From contig NZ_KQ483358.1 of the NCBI RefSeq assembly GCF_001432305.1, positions 2,417,822-2,481,821 on the forward strand: a DNA stretch of 64,000 bases. Reading direction: 5' to 3'. The stretch's first letter is position 1. Every line of letters starts with the position of its first letter. Made by a program: the position numbers and the translations under genes. The DNA is from Curvibacter sp. PAE-UM (GTDB lineage: Bacteria > Pseudomonadota > Gammaproteobacteria > Burkholderiales > Burkholderiaceae_C). The notes beneath the pieces were generated by a model. The model was not told where the DNA came from, did not search any database, and saw nothing but the letters and a program-made list of their open reading frames with translations. Of the stretch, positions 55,415 to 64,000 are shown piece after piece.

Positions 55415-56329
55415 ATGGGTGTCAACACCACCGTCGTTTTCACTGATCTGGCCGGCAGCACCTCCGTTTTCGAGTCACTAGGCAATATCAGGGCCACCCG
55501 AGCCGTCACGCAGTTGACGCGCTGGATTTGTGAGGTCCTGCAAGCCCAGGGCGGGCAGGTCATCAAGACACTCGGCGATGGCGTCCTGACCGTGTTCCAG
55601 GACGCCACCGTGGCGGTCAATGCCGTCGTGGATCTGCAGCGCCAGCACCAGATGAACCTCCTGCAGCAGCCCTTGGCCGAGCACCTGCCGATACGCGTTG
55701 GGGTGGCGACCGGCGAGGTGGAAATTGTGAATGGCGATTGCTACGGTGATGCCGTGAACATCGCATCCAGGCTCAGTGATCTGGCCGGCCCGCATGAAAT
55801 CTGGGCGGAAAGCCCCGATCTGGACTATTCCAGCCGGGCCAACGGTATTCGCTACAGGCCTCTGGGTCCCATCAGCGTACGTGGCCGCGTCGAGCCCTGC
55901 AATGTTTACCAGGTGGAGTGGCACGAGGACCAGTCTACCGACTTCATCACCATGCAGGGAGACATCGATCCCATGAGCAAGGCCGCCAAGGCCGACGCCC
56001 TGGGGCAAGAGGTCCACCTGAGCTGGGGTGACCAGAAGCGCGTCTTTCGGGCCTTTGAGTTACCGGCGCACATCGGACGCATCCGCCATTGTGAATTTGT
56101 CGTAGCCGACCCGCGTGTGTCGCGCACGCATGCACGCCTTGAATGGCGCCATGGGCGCATCATGCTCATCGACATGAGCAGCTATGGCACCTGGATCCGT
56201 TTTGTGGGGGCTCGATCAGAACTGCTGCTGCGCAGGGAAGAGTGCGTCTTGCACGGTCGAGGCCAGATTGCTCTGGGCGCATCTTTTACAGATGCCAGTG
56301 CACCCACGCTAGGTTTTGAGGTGACCTGA
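55415..56329 (+). CDS. class III adenylate cyclase fused to an FHA domain
   Basis: The product is 304 residues from ATG 55415. The cyclase domain (1-170) has metal-binding D11 (F-T-D-L-A-G-S) and D55 (K-T-L-G-D-G-V-L), with K51 as an adenine contact. D112, N115 and R119 are in G-D-A-V-N-I-A-S-R. All catalytic positions are filled, so it should make cAMP. The FHA domain (about 200-300) has G221-R222, S236-R237-x-H239 and S255-S256-x-G258-T259, the phosphothreonine-binding set. A protein kinase partner is expected but none is in the window. The start is very close to the first catalytic residue, and there is no upstream sensor. Confidence 0.88.
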   Translation: MGVNTTVVFTDLAGSTSVFESLGNIRATRAVTQLTRWICEVLQAQGGQVIKTLGDGVLTVFQDATVAVNAVVDLQRQHQMNLLQQPLAEHLPIRVGVATGEVEIVNGDCYGDAVNIASRLSDLAGPHEIWAESPDLDYSSRANGIRYRPLGPISVRGRVEPCNVYQVEWHEDQSTDFITMQGDIDPMSKAAKADALGQEVHLSWGDQKRVFRAFELPAHIGRIRHCEFVVADPRVSRTHARLEWRHGRIMLIDMSSYGTWIRFVGARSELLLRREECVLHGRGQIALGASFTDASAPTLGFEVT

Positions 56330-56460: not shown

Positions 56461-57204
56461 TTAATGAGATTGAGTTTGAGCTGAAACCACCCTGCGGATG
56501 GACGGCACCTTGGACATGCGATCGACTTCCATGACGAATCCGGACGGGATGGCACGGACACAGAAATCGAGATCCCTGGGCTCGAATTCGCCGGCCGGCA
56601 CGGCCAGAAATTTCGCGGCCGGCCTGGAGCGCAGGATGCGTTCCACCACATCGTCCGGGTGCAGCTGGCGCAGGCCCAGGATCTGGTCCCGGATGTATTC
56701 GGCACAGGCCAGATCGTCGTCGTCCTGGGGGTGCGACGCGATCACATTGACGGTCCGCAGCCCATTCCTGGCCAACAGATCGCGTACGTGCCCGGCGGTA
56801 TCCATGGCATTGGAGTAGCCGGTGACAAAAACATGGCGGGCCGCCAGCGCCGCCAAGGTGGCCTTGACCCCGTTGGTGGTCTTCTGAACCAGGGTGCGGC
56901 CCGCCAATTCGGCTTGGGCCACGCGGTACGGCGAATTGTCGAGATCAAAGCCGGGAATGCCGAGGCCCTTGATTTCTCCAGCCAGCAGCAAGGAAGGCTC
57001 ACGCGCCTTCAGGCTCATGGCCTCATCGACGGTGTTGACCAGAAGGATTTCCAGAACACCACGCAGAAAGGCGACGTGCGCCACCGTGAACGCGCGAATG
57101 ACATCAATGACGATATTGATGTCGGCGTCGGGATAAGGCTGATCGGTCCCTCGCAGGATCCGGATATCAGGTGCCGGGCCGCTCATCTCGCCACGCCGGT
57201 GCAT
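56461..57204 (-). CDS. comB: 2-phosphosulfolactate phosphatase-like protein (ComB family)
   Basis: The product is 247 residues from ATG 57202-57204, with GGAAGG 4 bases upstream (M-S-G-P at 57186 is an alternative). I-D-V-I-R-A-F-T (33-40), G-E-I-K-G-L-x-I-P-G-F-D-L-D-N-S-P (76-92) and K-T-T-N-G-V-K-A-T near 107-115 are the ComB signatures. ComB hydrolyses 2-phosphosulfolactate to sulfolactate on the coenzyme M route. It is the last gene of the chemosensory operon and follows comA by 30 bases. Confidence 0.85.
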   Translation of the reverse strand: MHRRGEMSGPAPDIRILRGTDQPYPDADINIVIDVIRAFTVAHVAFLRGVLEILLVNTVDEAMSLKAREPSLLLAGEIKGLGIPGFDLDNSPYRVAQAELAGRTLVQKTTNGVKATLAALAARHVFVTGYSNAMDTAGHVRDLLARNGLRTVNVIASHPQDDDDLACAEYIRDQILGLRQLHPDDVVERILRSRPAAKFLAVPAGEFEPRDLDFCVRAIPSGFVMEVDRMSKVPSIRRVVSAQTQSH

Positions 57205-57234
57205 CAGGCCTTCCGATCAAGACGACGCCCTGTA

Positions 57235-58146
57235 TTACTTGAGCCTCACCATGCCGGGGATCAAAGTGGCCGGCTGAGGCCACTCGTTCTTTCCCGCACC
57301 TTCGAGTTTGCGGCGCCGCTCCACGCCCGTACTGAAGCGGCTCGGTTTGGCCTCGGGTTCGACGAAGCGCCCGTCCGGCCCGTCGTAGAGGGAAAAGGTG
57401 TCGGACCGGATGCCCAGCCGCAAGGTTTCCAGGCCGATCACGTCGCCAAAGGCAATATTGCCCAGATTGACGTTGGGGCCGAGCGCAGCGATCAGTTTGG
57501 TCTGCAAGGCCTTGGTCGGCGCCTCCCAGATGGCATCGGAAGAGTTGAACTGGGCATTGCTGATGCTCTCTACCAGGTCGGAGCGCAGACGGCCCTGGGC
57601 ATCGCAGATGCCGCTCTTTCCAGATTCCCGAGCTTCCAGGATGACCCGCTTCGCTCCGGCGGCCAGATCGGCGTGGATTTCGGCAATCCATTGGGAGATC
57701 GGCATGTTGTCGGCCTCGTCGATGTCCTTCTTTCCAACCTCGCTCAGGACGTAGAACTCCTCGGCGAAATCGGCGATGTGCTTGCCCTTTTCCTCGATGG
57801 AAAGCGGCAAGGTACCGTTGGAGATTTCGACGATCTGGCAGTTGTAATGCTTGAGGAAACGGTAGAACGCGTCCAGTTTCTTCTGGGCCAGCGCCTTTTC
57901 GAACAGGGTGCCGCCGAAATAGAACATCACGTCGTTGTCGATCAGGCACTGGATCTTCTTTTCCAGTTCACTGGTGACCATGGCCGTGCACCAGCCGAAC
58001 TTGACGACATCGATCAAGGCAGCGTCGCTCTCCACCACATCCGTGAAGTAACGGGTCGGGACGCCGTTGTCGATCAAGGCGGTGAGCCCAAAATCCCGAG
58101 GCTTGGAGATGCGCTTGGGTGTATCCAGAAAGTTTTGCGACAGCAT
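57235..58146 (-). CDS. comA: phosphosulfolactate synthase-like protein (ComA family)
   Basis: The product is 303 residues from ATG 58144-58146 (AGAGGTCGT upstream). F-T-D-V-V-E-S, D-V-V-K-F-G-W, F-Y-F-G-G-T-L-F-E-K-A and E-I-S-N-G-T-L-P-L (about 125-133) match ComA, a (beta/alpha)8 enzyme that adds sulfite to phosphoenolpyruvate. It is longer than archaeal ComA (extra N- and C-terminal parts). It lies 10 bases after the cheW-like gene, so it is in the chemosensory transcript. Confidence 0.85.
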   Translation of the reverse strand: MLSQNFLDTPKRISKPRDFGLTALIDNGVPTRYFTDVVESDAALIDVVKFGWCTAMVTSELEKKIQCLIDNDVMFYFGGTLFEKALAQKKLDAFYRFLKHYNCQIVEISNGTLPLSIEEKGKHIADFAEEFYVLSEVGKKDIDEADNMPISQWIAEIHADLAAGAKRVILEARESGKSGICDAQGRLRSDLVESISNAQFNSSDAIWEAPTKALQTKLIAALGPNVNLGNIAFGDVIGLETLRLGIRSDTFSLYDGPDGRFVEPEAKPSRFSTGVERRRKLEGAGKNEWPQPATLIPGMVRLK

Positions 58147-58156
58147 ACGACCTCTT

Positions 58157-58678
58157 TCAAGGGGTGGCGGGGGAAACCGGACTCGTGAAAATGCGTGAAG
58201 GTTCAAGCACGGGAATCACCCTTCCCTGGTGCAAAAAACACGAGATGGCGATGCCGTCCCAGAACGCCTGGCCAACCGGCAGCGGGCACTGGTTGCTGTC
58301 GACCACCTCGACCATGCGGATGAGGAAGGGGGCACAGAATGCTCCATAGTCGATGGCTACACCGGGCGCCACCTGATAGGCCACCATGAGCACATGGCTG
58401 AAGGGCGGAGAAGCCGACGAATCCATGCCCCCCAGGTAGGCCTGGAGGTCGATCAGTGGCAGTTGCCTGCCCTGCCAGGCCACCAGGCCCCGGCAGAAAT
58501 GCGCCATGCCGGGCACCGGCACAAGCCGGGGCGACTCGACCAGTTCGACGCCAGCATGAACCGGCAGCGCGATGAACGAGTCCGCGGCGTATTCCAGTAC
58601 ACAGGCCAAGGCCGGGGTTTCACGCCCTGCTTCAGCGGGGAGCGCATCGTCAACCAGAACGGGCAGTTGCATGTCCAT
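58157..58678 (-). CDS. CheW-like adaptor protein
   Basis: The product is 173 residues (ATG 58676-58678; M-Q-L at 58672 is possible). L-E-Y-A-A-D-S-F-I-A-L-P-V-H-A-G-V-E-L-V-E, P-G-M-A-H-F-C-R-G-L-V-A-W-Q-G-R-Q-L-P-L-I-D-L is a CheW domain (about 25-160). It couples receptors to CheA. It is 3 bases after the preceding gene and 10 before comA. Confidence 0.82.
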   Translation of the reverse strand: MDMQLPVLVDDALPAEAGRETPALACVLEYAADSFIALPVHAGVELVESPRLVPVPGMAHFCRGLVAWQGRQLPLIDLQAYLGGMDSSASPPFSHVLMVAYQVAPGVAIDYGAFCAPFLIRMVEVVDSNQCPLPVGQAFWDGIAISCFLHQGRVIPVLEPSRIFTSPVSPATP

Positions 58679-58681
58679 GGT

Positions 58682-59152
58682 TCAGTCCGGATGCCTCAGC
58701 GTCTCGGGGAGCATGCGCTGCGCCGTCGTGCAAAAAGCAAGCTCCCTGTCGATCTCGACGTAGGCGTCGATCAACTCCACCTTGCCTTGCATGACGGCTG
58801 GCATGGCATGAAACTCGAGCTCCGTATCGATCAGGACGCGGACTTCGGTCCAGGCCAATGCGGCGCCCTGGCGGGAGCCCGTGAAACGGGTCAGAAGGAA
58901 GCGATCCGGCGGAAACATGTCCAGCAAATCCATCTGCGCCGACAGCGCCAGCACCGCCTGCGTCCCGCCCGGCTGGTTCCCCAGCACGAAAACGCCCGGC
59001 TCGGCGGTCGCGACAGGTGTCTGATCGATGTATTCGGTCGACGACACGTCGCGCTGAGGGATCAACAGGCGCAGCGAATCGGCACGCAACAGCACGAAGT
59101 CGCCGCGCATCTTCATGGTCCGGGCCTGGCCCGTGCGGCTCGGATCGCTCAT
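58682..59152 (-). CDS. possible divergent CheW-like protein of the chemosensory operon
   Basis: The product is 156 residues from ATG 59150-59152. F-V-L-L-R-A-D-S-L-R-L-L-I-P-Q-R-D-V near 20-37 and A-W-T-E-V-R-V-L-I-D near 100-110 have the rhythm of CheW strands, but the G-x-x-x-x-R-G-x-x-x-P core is missing. I class it as CheW-like only tentatively. It lies between cheA (22 bases) and the clear cheW. Confidence 0.5.
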   Translation of the reverse strand: MSDPSRTGQARTMKMRGDFVLLRADSLRLLIPQRDVSSTEYIDQTPVATAEPGVFVLGNQPGGTQAVLALSAQMDLLDMFPPDRFLLTRFTGSRQGAALAWTEVRVLIDTELEFHAMPAVMQGKVELIDAYVEIDRELAFCTTAQRMLPETLRHPD

Positions 59153-59174
59153 GTTTTGCGGCTCCCCGGTTCCT

Positions 59175-62039
59175 TCATGCCACCAGCGCCTCGCGTATGG
59201 TCTGCAGAAGCTCGCCCTCGTTGTAGGGCTTGGTGATGTAGTTGCTGACGCCAGCCTGTTCGGCCAGCCGACGGTGCTTGTCCTGGGAGCGCGAGGTGAT
59301 CATGATCACCGGCACCGCCTTGAGATCGTCGCGGTTGCGGATATGGGTGGTGAGCTCGATGCCGTTCATATTGGGCATTTCGAGGTCGGTCAGCACGATG
59401 TCCGCATTGAAGGACCCCAGGGTGTCGATGGCGTCGATGCCGTCGCGCGCCGACTGCACCCGGAATCCGGCGTCCTGGACCAATTGCATCAGGGAGGTGC
59501 GGACTGACAAGGCATCGTCGACGATCAGCACGCCCGGCGAGTCTTTCTGCGCCGCCGCCGTGGTACCGGACGAGCGCAGGCTCTTCACCTGACGTTGGAC
59601 GCTTTCGCTGCCAAGCAGCTGGCTCGTGTCCAGGTTCACGGCCACGCTGCCATCCCCCAGGATCGACAGTCCGGCCACGCCGCGAATGTGGCGCGCAAAC
59701 CGGCCCGGGTTCTTCACCAGCAACTCGCGCGAATCGATCAGGCGATCAACGCCCAGGACATGGGTCTTGTTGTCCGCCCGGATGATCACGGCATCGTAGT
59801 CATCCAGCGGTTTTTCGCTGTCCATGGCCAGCCCGGTCAGCTCGGCCAGCAGCCGGCCGCCCAGTACCCGTTTGCCGTGGTGGTAGACCAGCTTGTCGCC
59901 AGCGCGTTCGAACCGCCCGACTCCCCTCGGGACGGCCTGTTCGATATGCAGCGAAGGCAGCGCAAAGCGCTGGCCGCCGACTTCCACCACCAGCGATTGC
60001 ATGGTCGACAGCGAGGCGGCGAAGCGCAGTTCGAAGGTACAGCCCTGCCCTTCCCGCGTGCTGATGCGGATGGTGCCATTCATGGCGCTGATCCAGTCCC
60101 GCACCACGTCCAGGCCCACGCCGCGCCCCGACACTTCGTTCACGGCATCACGCGTCGAAAAGCCGGGCAGCAGGATGAGGCGAGCCAGCTCGTCGTCCGT
60201 CAAGACCTGGTCCGGGTTGATGAGCCCCCTTTCCATGCCGCGCCGGCGGATGGCGGCCAGATCCAGCCCGAGGCCATCGTCGCTGCACTGGAGCACCACC
60301 TGCTGGCCCTGGCGCGAATACGCCAGTTCGATGCGACCCACAGGCTCCTTGCCGGCAACCCTGCGCTCCTCGGGCGATTCGATGCCGTGATCGACCGCAT
60401 TGCGCAACAGATGCAGCAGCGGCTCCGCCAGGCGATTGAGCATGTCCCCGTCGATCAGTGCCTCGCTGCCCTTGATGGTCAGCGCCGCCAGTTTGCCGGT
60501 GGCCTGGCAGGTGGCACGCACATTGCGCTGCAGACGCGGCTCCAGTATGCCGGCCGGGCTCATCCGTGTGCGGATGACCAAGTGCTGCAGGTCTTTCGAC
60601 AGGCGCTGTTGCAGCGACTGCACCCCCGTCAACTGGGAAATGTCTTCTTCGAGCCGGAAGGCGAGCGTGCGGGCATCGGCGGATTCTTCCATCAGTGCAT
60701 GGGTCGTGCTGTGCAGTTCGCTGTACTGGTCCATCTCCAGCGGATCAAAAGCCTCTTCATTCTCACGGCGCGTACGGGCGCGCATCATGGTCAGGGCACG
60801 CACATCGACCAGGGTCTCCAGTTCGAACAGGCGCTTCTGCACCCGCAGATTCTGGTTGATCAGATCGCGGGCGTGCTCGGTCAGGCGCTTGATACGGGCC
60901 TCCAGCGCGGCGCTGTTGACCGAGACTTCGCCCGAGACGCGGAACAGTTCATCAACCTGCTGGACGCTGACACGCAGCGCCGTGGCGTTGCGCGCCGCAG
61001 ACGAGGTGCCTTCATGCGCTTGTGCGACCGCCTGCAGGGATTGCGGCGCGTTGCTGCGGGCGGAGACCTGTGACGGCGCCGTGCTGGCCAGCGCAACGGA
61101 GGTGGAGCGTGACAGCGCCTGGTCGATCACTTCGCCGCGGTCGATGCGATTGGCCAGGTCCAGGACTCTCTGCAACACTTCCTGCGCCTGTTGAGGGTAA
61201 TCGTCCGTGCCAGTGACATAGCCGACCATCTGCTCAAGGCAGTAAGCGGCGTCCAGCAGGGTATCCGCGGCGGGCCTGGCAACGACCCCGCCCTGGCTTT
61301 CGAAGTGATCCAGGATGTCCTCGAAATGGTGTCCCAGCGACGCGAGGCCGCGCAGGCCGATGATGGCGCCGGACCCCTTGAGGGTGTGCGCCATGCGCCG
61401 CGCGGCGATCAGATCCGAACTGTCGCCCTCCCCCTGTGCCATGTTGCGCGACAGGTCCACCAGATAGCGTGCCTGGTCGGGCGCCTCGTGGAAAAAGCCC
61501 TCCAGCAGCTTGGAATCCACATCGGCCGGAATCTGCAGTGCCACGTCTTCCGGTGTGGCCAGCACCGCGCGTGCCGGCTGGCCATCTCCGCCCGGCTGTT
61601 GCACCTGCAGCGGCATGGCGCCCAGCATGTGCATGATCTTCAGCGCCCGCTCTTCGTCCAGCGCATAGGGCGCATGCACCAGATGGTCGACCAGGCCCGC
61701 AGCCGTGGTCGGATCGGAGATGTTGCGCAGGTAGTAGATGATCAGCGGCGGCCACGCGCGCAGAAACCTGATCAGGTCCCCGCGTTCATGGTTTTGCAAG
61801 CCCGGCAGTGCCAGCGTGTTCTCGAGCACATGGTTGCAGACAGCCTGCAGACCGGGGAAACCTGCCATTTCGGCAGCCTCCCCCATCCGCTGCGCCAGGC
61901 TGCTGTATTCATCCAGCGCCACCAGAAAGGCCTGCTCGGCGGCATCCAGAGATGCCAGTTCGTCCAGGTCGCGGTCGAGCTGCGGCTGGGCGAGCTCGAT
62001 CTCGGCGGCCAATGCATCGATCAGGTCGTTCAGCTTCAC
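59175..62039 (-). CDS. hybrid CheA-type histidine kinase with C-terminal receiver
   Basis: The product is 954 residues. An N-terminal HPt-like helical segment without histidine (about 30-130) is followed by a true HPt with H218 (A-H-T-L-K-G-S-G). The dimerisation region (about 340-480), the ATPase with L-R-N-A-V-D-H-G-I-E, D-D-G-L-G-L-D and G-R-G-V-G-L-D, a CheW-like domain (about 690-820), and a receiver with D885 (T-D-L-E-M-P) and K in T-K-P-Y complete it. This is the ChpA/PilL-type layout more than flagellar CheA. No separate CheY, CheB or CheR gene is in the window. Confidence 0.92.
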   Translation of the reverse strand: MKLNDLIDALAAEIELAQPQLDRDLDELASLDAAEQAFLVALDEYSSLAQRMGEAAEMAGFPGLQAVCNHVLENTLALPGLQNHERGDLIRFLRAWPPLIIYYLRNISDPTTAAGLVDHLVHAPYALDEERALKIMHMLGAMPLQVQQPGGDGQPARAVLATPEDVALQIPADVDSKLLEGFFHEAPDQARYLVDLSRNMAQGEGDSSDLIAARRMAHTLKGSGAIIGLRGLASLGHHFEDILDHFESQGGVVARPAADTLLDAAYCLEQMVGYVTGTDDYPQQAQEVLQRVLDLANRIDRGEVIDQALSRSTSVALASTAPSQVSARSNAPQSLQAVAQAHEGTSSAARNATALRVSVQQVDELFRVSGEVSVNSAALEARIKRLTEHARDLINQNLRVQKRLFELETLVDVRALTMMRARTRRENEEAFDPLEMDQYSELHSTTHALMEESADARTLAFRLEEDISQLTGVQSLQQRLSKDLQHLVIRTRMSPAGILEPRLQRNVRATCQATGKLAALTIKGSEALIDGDMLNRLAEPLLHLLRNAVDHGIESPEERRVAGKEPVGRIELAYSRQGQQVVLQCSDDGLGLDLAAIRRRGMERGLINPDQVLTDDELARLILLPGFSTRDAVNEVSGRGVGLDVVRDWISAMNGTIRISTREGQGCTFELRFAASLSTMQSLVVEVGGQRFALPSLHIEQAVPRGVGRFERAGDKLVYHHGKRVLGGRLLAELTGLAMDSEKPLDDYDAVIIRADNKTHVLGVDRLIDSRELLVKNPGRFARHIRGVAGLSILGDGSVAVNLDTSQLLGSESVQRQVKSLRSSGTTAAAQKDSPGVLIVDDALSVRTSLMQLVQDAGFRVQSARDGIDAIDTLGSFNADIVLTDLEMPNMNGIELTTHIRNRDDLKAVPVIMITSRSQDKHRRLAEQAGVSNYITKPYNEGELLQTIREALVA

Positions 62040-62078
62040 GGGCGTAGCCTCCTCGGGAAAACAATGCTGACGTCGGTC

Positions 62079-63872
62079 TCAGGCCATCTTCGGCAGCTTG
62101 AACACGTTGACCGATTCCACCAGCCGGCGCGCTGATTGCAGCAGCGACTCGGTTTCGCGGTTCTGGGCCGAGATCTGGTCTGCCGTGCGCTCCGTGCTCA
62201 GGCCGATGTGCTGCACCGAGGCCAGCAGGTTGGCCGACATCTCGCGCTGCTGCTCGGACATCTCGGCAATCCGCTTCACCTGGGCCACCAGTTCTCCGGT
62301 GATCTGCTGGGTCATGCGCATCTGCTCCCCTGCCTTTTGCGCCTGTTCGGAGCCCTGTACCACCTGGCCGATGGTGCGGTTCACCGTGCTGATGGTTTCA
62401 TTGGTTTCGAGCTGGATGTTGTTCACCAGCGTGCTGATCTGCTGGGTGGCCGTCCGCGAGCTTTCGGCCAGTCGCTGCACTTCTTCCGCCACCACCGCAA
62501 AACCGCGCCCCGCTTCTCCGGCCACCGCGGCCTGCATGGACGCGTTCAGCGCCAGCACGTGGGTGCGTTCCGAGATGGTGTTGATCAGGTTCACGATGCC
62601 TGAAATTTCCTGAGAACGCTCGCCCAGGCGCTTGATGCGCTTCTCCGTCTCGGCGATCGTTTCGCGGATCGACTCCATGCCCTTGACCGTGCCGTTCACC
62701 GTTTCCAGCGCGGTATTCGTCACGGCCGTGGCCTTGCTGGCCGATGCATTGGACTGCTCCGCCAACTCCGCCACCTGGTTCATGGTCTGCGTTGCGTTGG
62801 TGAGAGATTCGATCATCTTGCCCACGCTGGTGCGCTCGTCCGCGGCCGTCTTGGACACCATCTCGGCCTGGGTGCGCACCTTGTCCGAGGCCTGGGCCAC
62901 GTGGCCGGCGATCTGGCTCACGCCCTGCAGCACCTTGGAGGTCTCGGCCGTCAGGGAGTTGATGGAGTCGGACACGGTGCCGATCACGTCCTCGGTGACG
63001 GGCGCCTTCACGGTCAGGTCACGCTGCGACAGTTGATGCACCGATTCCAGGATCGAGATGACCGACTGGTTCAGACGGTCGTTTTCCGTCTCGGCCTTGA
63101 GCTGGGCATCTCGGCGTTCCTTCAGAAGACCGTGCACCGTGCGCCAGATGGCACCCAGTTCGTCCTGCGACTTGACGCCCTCGGCTTCCTTCAACTCCTC
63201 GCCTGCGCGCACACGCTCCACCGTGTTCTGCAGGTCCTGCAACGGACGGCTGATGCCGCGGTACACATACAGCGCCGTGCCGATGCCGAGCAATGCCAGC
63301 AGCAGGCCGGTCAGTCCCATCAGACGGTTGGCCGTCGCGTGGATCTGGGCAATGCTCTCTTCGTTGTTCTTCTGCGCCAGCTTGCGCAAATCCGTGATGC
63401 CCTTCACGGTGGCAATCGCCCCGGGGGTCGTCCATTTGAGGCGGATCTCCTGGACCTCATCCACCTTGCCTTCGTCGAACATGCCAAAAAGCAGCGGCTG
63501 CTTGGCCACATACTCCGCAAGAAACGCCCTCGTCTGCTTCAGCTTTTCAGCCTCTTCCTCCGTCAGGTTGGGCAGTTCCGAGTAGGCTTGCAGGCCCTGC
63601 TCGACGTCCCGGATGTGTTTCGGGTTGCTGTCCTTGATGCTCTGGCGCCGTTTCGCATCGGGACTGGTCATGTACAGCGGGAAGCCGGAACGCAGCTCCC
63701 AGACGGAGTTTTCCGCCTGCGCAATGATCGAGAACTTGGTCTCGGTCAGCGCCTGCAGACGCTGGAACGTGTTCACCTGCCAGGTGGCCACTACGGCGAA
63801 CACGGCGGATAGGAGCAGCAGCAGGCTGAAGCCGGCCAGCACCTTGGTTCGGATCGTCAGGTTCAATTTCAT
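62079..63872 (-). CDS. methyl-accepting chemotaxis-type receptor
   Basis: The product is 597 residues. ATG 63870-63872 has GGAGAG 5 bases upstream; a TTG one codon earlier is not needed. A first span (12-34), a periplasmic sensor of about 155 residues, a second span (about 190-212), HAMP, a second linker and the signalling domain follow. The hairpin tip reads [25 protein letters not shown] rather than the flagellar type Q-T-N-L-L-A-L-N-A-A. There is no C-terminal pentapeptide. It is 39 bases upstream of cheA. PilJ-like or an alternative-function receptor are possible. Confidence 0.92.
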
Positions 63873-63920: not shown

Positions 63921-64000
63921 CTATGCGCCTGTGGCCGCCAGTTCGTCGCTCAATTTGCTCAGCAGCACCGGCACCTGCAAGTCCATCCAGGTACGCTCGG
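63921..64000 (-). CDS. 3' end of a probable CheW/PilI-like protein (5' end outside window)
   Basis: Twenty-five codons and the stop (TAG, plus-strand cta at 63921-63923) are visible, ending R-T-W-M-D-L-Q-V-P-V-L-L. A tail with W-x-D-L-x-x-L is common at the end of CheW proteins, and the gene lies directly upstream of the receptor gene, where pilI sits in Pil-Chp clusters. The assignment rests on context. Confidence 0.5.
   Translation of the reverse strand, partial: ERTWMDLQVPVLLSKLSDELAATGA

Follow-up and report, generated by a model that had tools for sequence, protein, structure and literature searches.

A predicted pilus-type chemosensory gene set that ends in comA and comB in Curvibacter sp. 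PAE-UM and related genomes

Two genes of the phosphosulfolactate synthase (ComA) and phosphosulfolactate phosphatase (ComB) families lie directly behind a chemosensory operon in Curvibacter sp. PAE-UM, and the locus raises the question of whether these enzymes belong to the signalling system or only stand next to it. ComA is known chiefly from coenzyme M and spore sulfolactate. The window analysed here is a stretch of 64,000 nucleotides (contig NZ_KQ483358.1, positions 2,417,822 to 2,481,821), of which a preliminary description, made from the sequence alone, had noted the arrangement. We find that comA and comB are the last two of ten genes that are all present or all missing in each of 26 genomes of the genus, a stronger observation than the one first described. 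We favour the reading, with a probability of roughly 0.55, that comA and comB are a working part of the array module and make sulfolactate.

The set consists, in order, of genes for a receiver protein, PilG, PilH, CheW, a methyl-accepting chemotaxis protein (MCP), CheA, a 156-amino-acid (aa) protein, a second CheW, ComA and ComB. The preliminary description had placed the last six of these on one strand with gaps of 39, 22, 3, 10 and 30 bases; all six frames are open, on the minus strand and at the places it gave, and the five gaps are exact. The set is longer than it had stated by the four genes upstream. The upstream CheW gene, which runs past the end of the window, and the PilH-like, PilG-like and third receiver protein genes follow on the same strand of the contig (G000:C1:2481742-2484021; G and L numbers denote genomes and loci), the last encoding 289 aa with the receiver at the C-terminus. 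The family names given earlier to MCP, hybrid CheA, CheW, ComA and ComB hold by Pfam, but the earlier description of the 156-aa protein as CheW-like does not find confirmation, as discussed below.

ComA occurs in 5 of the 26 genus genomes, and ComB and an orthologous CheA (82-96% identical in the four other carriers) occur in the same five; the other 21 lack all three, and their best match to the CheA of the set has 31% identity (E 1.6e-97). Compared from end to end, the MCPs of the four other carriers are 85-98% identical to ours. Six loci came from a ComA search of named genomes. In four of them comA lies behind the same array genes, namely L009 (Burkholderiales bacterium, genome G648), L010 (Curvibacter sp., G653), L011 (Hylemonella sp., G657) and L014 (Burkholderiales bacterium, G655, where comA is cut by the contig end), loci and genomes being equated by their coordinates; L012 and L013 hold comA-comB without array genes. 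Curvibacter and Hylemonella both belong to the Comamonadaceae. Because our genome and all four related loci have comA right behind the same cheW, the link between the two genes is more than chance. The conservation in related genomes that the preliminary description had asked for is thus seen: the cheW-comA junction is kept in 5/5 carriers, and in the genomes searched the link is confined to one genus.

The junction itself has the appearance of an operon. The comA gene starts 10 bases past the cheW stop codon, directly behind which stands AAGAGG, resembling a ribosome-binding site, and the 10-base gap is found again in L009, L010 and L014, with 38 bases in L011. A simple scan of the minus strand between 56330 and 58900 detected no promoter-like site and no terminator-like site at the junction, which is weak evidence, and the single terminator-like site that it did detect lies within comB. 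The gap, the AAGAGG and the scan agree with the earlier suggestion that cheW and comA form one unit, with no separate promoter and terminator seen between them in the scan, and the two genes are probably co-transcribed.

Relatives that lack the set show how it came or went. In G145 and G229 the gene tatD and an adenylate/guanylate cyclase-type gene (AC) are adjacent at the same site, with no frame called between them, and the presence of AC beside tatD in relatives without the set makes AC a boundary gene. Past the receiver-protein end of the set stand tatD, a PilZ gene and a holB-like gene, and all three are present also at sites without the set. In G647 the site is occupied by two T2SSE-domain genes resembling pilus or secretion ATPases, one with an MshEN domain (L075:6690-10282); the fetched stretch of G642 did not show the tatD side. 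A tree of six flanking genes, which covers 8 of the 26 genomes (it omits G655, whose flanks are lacking, and 17 genomes that were not fetched), intermixes carriers and non-carriers and rejects a clade of the four carriers (approximately unbiased test, p-AU 6e-6). The presence label requires three changes on this tree, two of them forced by well-supported branches, gain and loss not being distinguishable. Since the site is empty or holds other genes in relatives, and since the four carriers in the tree are not one clade, the ten-gene set arrived or departed whole, more than once.

Both comA and comB are under purifying selection: the ratio of nonsynonymous to synonymous divergence (dN/dS; Nei-Gojobori method, custom script) lies between 0.035 and 0.18 across six pairs of comA and between 0.11 and 0.22 across five pairs of comB, with 0-0.40 for the other eight genes of the set. 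Between our genome and L010, the synonymous divergence (dS) of nine set genes is 0.45-0.88, in line with that of HolB (0.59), TatD (0.61) and LdcA (0.74). Because the dS of the set, comB aside, resembles that of these three genes, we tentatively prefer inheritance of the set together with its locus.

A block that comes and goes whole also suits a different explanation, namely that comA and comB landed behind cheW by chance and are kept for an unrelated purpose, for instance to remove sulfite or to provide an osmolyte. A linked block can vanish whole without functional coupling, ComA-ComB pairs exist without an array in L012 and L013 (genome G506), and related arrays exist without comAB. However, the 10-base spacing is kept in 4/5 carriers, and none of the 26 genus genomes (0/26) carries comAB or the array alone, so that we regard a passenger role as rather unlikely.

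Coordinates of the gene set and its boundary within the window
Feature	Position	Strand	Basis or remark
Upstream CheW (PilI-like), 3' end	63921..64000	-	remainder of gene past window end
MCP: 4HB_MCP_1 sensor domain (residues ~30-190), weak HAMP, MCP signalling domain	62079..63872	-	ATG start; Pfam
Hybrid CheA, 954 aa: one Pfam Hpt, HATPase_c, CheW, C-terminal receiver	59175..62039	-	GTG start; Pfam
156-aa protein, family unassigned	58682..59152	-	open frame; no Pfam or NCBIfam matches
CheW, second of the set	58157..58678	-	PF01584, 39.1 bits, cut-off 23.5
ComA, phosphosulfolactate synthase family, 303 aa, ~50-residue C-terminal extension	57235..58146	-	PF02679
ComB, phosphosulfolactate phosphatase family, divergent	56461..57204	-	PF04029
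AC, adenylate/guanylate cyclase-type + FHA gene, boundary, outside the set	55415..56329	+	Pfam; convergent with comB

What kind of array do the enzymes follow? The nearest known system is Pil-Chp, the chemosensory system of type IV pili in Pseudomonas aeruginosa, with which the set has in common a PilG/PilH-like receiver pair, CheW, MCP and a hybrid CheA with a C-terminal receiver, in the same order. The differences are substantial. The Pil-Chp receptor has a PilJ-type sensor domain, which Pfam does not detect in the MCP of the set; there the domains found are MCPsignal and 4HB_MCP_1, with HAMP slightly under its cut-off. The set lacks a methyltransferase or methylesterase gene and adds the receiver protein, a CheW, the 156-aa protein and comA-comB. 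Its CheA has a single Pfam Hpt domain (residues 178-262, with residues 1-177 unassigned), whereas typical pilus-class CheAs have several, according to PMC10782961. The genome encodes two further systems, a pilGHIJ-chpA-like cluster with a ChpA-like CheA of 1984 aa and another CheA beside flagellar genes (L079, L081), and because of these the ten-gene set is best described as an additional array, of predicted pilus type.

The 156-aa protein deserves separate comment. In 8 further loci with such an array, a homolog occupies the same place between CheA and CheW; 3 of these loci were retrieved using the protein itself as query. A Pfam search matched none of nine orthologs at E<=1 (0/9), a profile comparison with the neighbouring CheW gave a probability of 0.1%, and the AlphaFold model is poor (predicted local distance difference test, pLDDT, 45.6). 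With sequence and profile matches absent and a poor model, its identification as a CheW is unconfirmed.

The favoured reading further requires that ComA and ComB make sulfolactate. ComA matches Pfam PF02679 with 264.6 bits (cut-off 25.2) and the structure 1u83 of the PDB over residues 7-253 (E 1.6e-78), and 49 columns are invariant among 11 ComAs that include the one of the set and Bacillus subtilis YitD, to which it is 49% identical. Judged by this column conservation, the conserved ComA columns are intact, and the loss of active-site residues against which the preliminary description had cautioned is not seen. ComB matches PF04029 over residues 26-186 with 117.4 bits (cut-off 26.4), has relatives of solved structure (2z0j, 1vr0, 2yyv) and shares 19 invariant columns in an alignment of 8 ComBs. 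The assignment to both Pfam families, made earlier, thus stands, but that to the exact enzymes is less secure: both proteins score below the NCBIfam equivalog cut-offs, and ComB is divergent, with IRAFT and TTNGV in two conserved motifs that read RATT or RATS and TTNGT in the three relatives of solved structure. Because of these motif changes and low scores, sulfolactate is a likely, not a certain, product of the pair.

The same observations bear on the suggestion, also present in the preliminary description, that the enzymes act on other compounds. ComA and above all ComB might use another substrate than sulfite with phosphoenolpyruvate and phosphosulfolactate, as the changed ComB motifs and the sub-threshold scores of both enzymes would allow; however, ComA has its 49 invariant columns in common with 10 other ComAs, YitD among them, and we consider a change of substrate quite improbable.

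Two known systems employ these enzyme families. The first is the yitC-yitD pair of B. subtilis, where phosphatase and synthase genes likewise stand together; the pair described here differs in lying behind an array without a link to sporulation, in its divergent ComB and in the C-terminal extension of its ComA. According to PMC517825, sulfolactate makes up 5% of the dry weight of B. subtilis spores, yitC and yitD are in one operon, and they are named as inferred to take part in phosphosulfolactate synthesis. In all 4 carriers whose comA is complete, the ComA extension has PGM..LK at its end; it differs in L012 and L013, and it evolves faster than the core. We considered the extension as a tether to the array and rejected this in view of its faster change.

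The second system is archaeal and bacterial coenzyme M synthesis, with ComA-ComE and the xcb genes. The likeness is limited to the ComA family: partner genes are absent beside comAB, and comC, comD, comE or lyase-type neighbours, which by eye accompany comA in L055-L057 and L109, do not stand near comA here, so that coenzyme M synthesis is not supported for this locus.

Where sulfolactate might be used can be approached from ComA genes elsewhere. ComA occurs in 5 of 250 genomes of the family sample (ours included), in 29 of 399 of the order sample at E<=0.001, mostly at ~30% identity, and in 7 of 369 of the class sample at E<=1e-20; plasmid relatives number 19 records, all below 60% identity. 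Taken together, the three samples give 12 ComA loci with E<=1e-20 from beyond the genus, and array genes stand beside none of the 12 in the stretches read, which for G682 and G750 are contigs shorter than 5 kb; a weak MCP match (25%) lies ~19 kb from comA in G925. No comA beside chemosensory genes is reported in the titles and opening lines of abstracts among the papers listed by the literature searches, which did not cover most subscription papers.

Five of the 12 loci are flagellar or surface-glycan loci, although few loci were sampled and some of the assignments were made by eye. In two lineages, one of the same family and one elsewhere in the class, ComA and ComB are fused into one frame with both Pfam domains within islands of flagellin-glycosylation type: G159 (L054:7230-8891) has flagellin, GT41 and DegT genes by Pfam and fliD by eye, and G925 (L097:6625-8136) has DegT and cytidylyltransferase genes by Pfam, with flagellin-like and fliD-like genes ~12 kb away by eye. 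G535 (L053:4775-14277), a draft genome from another family of the order, has flgL-like and fliR-type genes on either side of comA, a glyoxalase-like gene (by eye, without a Pfam match) and comB, amid FlgK, flagellin-type (FlgL-like), FliR-type, FliP and FliM domains by Pfam, comA and comB each being split across two frames. The remaining two islands are of surface-polysaccharide type. In G887 (L094:1677-4179) glyoxalase-family, histidine-phosphatase and 3'-phosphoadenosine 5'-phosphosulfate (PAPS) reductase-domain genes lie beside comA by Pfam; in G954 (L095:4987-8199) glyoxalase-family and histidine-phosphatase genes stand beside comA by Pfam, accompanied by an AMP-binding ligase and, by eye, a PAPS-reductase-like gene. 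The PAPS-reductase genes near comA could supply sulfite. The other loci comprise four that look coenzyme-M-like from neighbours read by eye (G186, G202, G379, G837), a ComA-ComB pair without an array (G506, locus L013), and the short contigs of G682 and of G750, in which ComA-ComB is followed by an AMP-ligase-like gene (by eye).

These loci suggest that sulfolactate made by ComA and ComB might decorate flagella, pili or another surface glycan, expression being shared with the pilus-type array for life on surfaces. The two flagellin-glycosylation-type islands, the flgK/flgL-fliR locus and the two polysaccharide islands are consistent with this, as is the possible sulfite source adjoining comA in L094 (and, by eye, in L095). 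Our genome also has three flagellins (Pfam) beside sugar-nucleotide-like genes and a tetratricopeptide repeat protein (by eye; L114:10016-16275 and L115:526-5601), likely a flagellin-glycosylation region, though one without comA. On the other side, no transferase or ligase gene stands in or beside the set, four of the 12 outside loci are coenzyme-M-like and three uninformative, and no paper on a glycan bearing sulfolactate was among those listed by the literature searches. Decoration is accordingly a tentative idea, and on its own somewhat improbable.

The other conceivable use is in sensing. Sulfolactate is malate with a sulfonate replacing one carboxylate. The sensor domain of the MCP is modelled as a four-helix bundle (pLDDT 89.1), and the ten best PDB matches of the model in Foldseek are all chains of MCP2201, with TM-scores of 0.78-0.85 by target length, E values of 1.3e-3 to 5e-3 (none <=0.001) and 14-18% identity, other four-helix receptors coming next; a sequence search of the PDB with the sensor profile matched no receptor. 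According to PMC10735184 and PMC12112095, MCP2201 is a Comamonas testosteroni receptor that binds malate and citrate, and its pocket residues are T105, T108, R135, Y138, R142 and Y172 (PMC10735184). In an alignment by helix offset, without superposition, R135 corresponds to L89 and R142 to Q96, and only Y138 of the six residues is kept (Y92). A malate-type pocket is therefore rejected for the sensor domain, since the pocket arginines are lost in this alignment, and the likeness to MCP2201, shared in fold, is a lead, no more.

This lead nevertheless permits a closed loop, in which sulfolactate from ComA and ComB would be exported and then detected by the set's own MCP, so that the cell would make its own cue for behaviour on surfaces or in groups. 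The receptor fold closest to the sensor is that of a malate and citrate receptor, of whose ligand sulfolactate is an analogue, and the four related arrays without comA have a receptor that matches the MCP over its C-terminal part only, the sensor domain being different. Against this stand the modest Foldseek statistics and the following ranks of other four-helix receptors, the lost arginines, the absence of an exporter gene from the set, and the fact that the different sensor domains come from a single clade. We consider the loop doubtful. A shade more doubtful still is its larger implication, a chemosensory operon of the Comamonadaceae that would encode a receptor together with the enzymes that make its ligand, with sulfolactate as a self-made, sulfonate-type signal steering pilus-type behaviour. 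In one of the arrays without comA (G015), the gene right before the MCP encodes an SBP_bac_3 extracellular solute-binding protein (L051:3726-4571).

Several observations weigh against a working module that makes sulfolactate. The link between comA and the array is restricted to one genus (5/26 genomes), the four other carriers are draft genomes, and related arrays (CheA 62-65% identical) have comA beside them in 0/4 cases: three, in G097, G198 and G015, were retrieved from 250 family genomes with the 156-aa protein as query, a search that arrays of this type without a recognisable 156-aa protein escape, and the fourth is an additional copy in G653. The comA-comB adjacency is seen in 3/5 carriers (ours, G653 and G657): in G648 comA is followed by a Tn3-type transposase-like gene, with comB at the beginning of a separate contig, and in G655 the two genes are on different contigs, each cut by a contig end. 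Moreover, dS between our genome and L010 is higher on the comB side (comB 1.08, AC 1.58, 113-aa protein 1.20), and because these values exceed the rest that side may have a separate history. The deletion or transfer of a linked block could also mimic functional linkage. With respect to the enzymes, ComA scores 227.1 bits against the archaeal equivalog TIGR03849 (cut-off 280 bits), and the best of 8 equivalog models matched by ComB gives 91.3 bits against a cut-off of 332. Lastly, sulfolactate may be converted further. Far from comAB, a ComE-like match of 140.3 bits (cut-off 221.5; the search matches 14/14 controls, 2 of them above the cut-off) belongs to a ComD/ComE-like pair (L106:6829-8025; G000:C1 ~880.8-882.0 kb) whose neighbours are, by eye, tricarballylate-type, binding-protein and aldehyde-dehydrogenase-like genes, and one protein above cut-off of the Ldh_2 family, to which ComC belongs, is encoded beside an aldehyde-dehydrogenase-like gene (L107, by eye); a link to comAB is seen at neither locus.

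Two related points concern the comB end. Horizontal exchange of the set alone, an idea raised by the dS of AC and of the 113-aa protein, is tentatively disfavoured because HolB, TatD and LdcA (0.59-0.74) match the set without comB. In L010 (11741-17023), comB is followed by Rhs-like and transposase-like frames (by eye), and the locus also holds an isolated fragment similar to residues 165-193 of ComB.

On balance we retain the reading of comA and comB as a working part of the array module. The ten genes of an extra array with a PilG/PilH-like pair, ending in comA and comB, pass on as a single module and probably share a transcript; ComA would couple sulfite to phosphoenolpyruvate and ComB would strip the phosphate, yielding sulfolactate as an end product under all conditions in which the array is expressed. 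The site of action is most likely the cell surface or the space beyond it, where sulfolactate, as a guess, would either modify a glycan or surface appendage or be a cue outside the cell. Among guesses about its destination, surface modification is a tentative one and a cue for the array a doubtful one, a co-inherited passenger role is again tentative, and something else accounts for the rest. The alternatives overlap with the retained reading, and their probabilities need not add up to one.

Because the ten genes are present together or absent together, sensing and sulfolactate chemistry are probably linked in these bacteria. Of the preliminary description, the single-unit arrangement and the conservation in relatives are supported, the latter within one genus; its suggestion that sulfolactate is produced in response to the array or sensed by it is a conjecture. 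Seen alongside the ComA genes of flagellin and polysaccharide islands in other genomes, the conserved set suggests a use of sulfolactate in some bacteria, either as a cue or at the surface of the cell. The association of comA-comB with a chemosensory array makes possible a direct test of the role of sulfolactate, in the behaviour of the array and in surface glycans.

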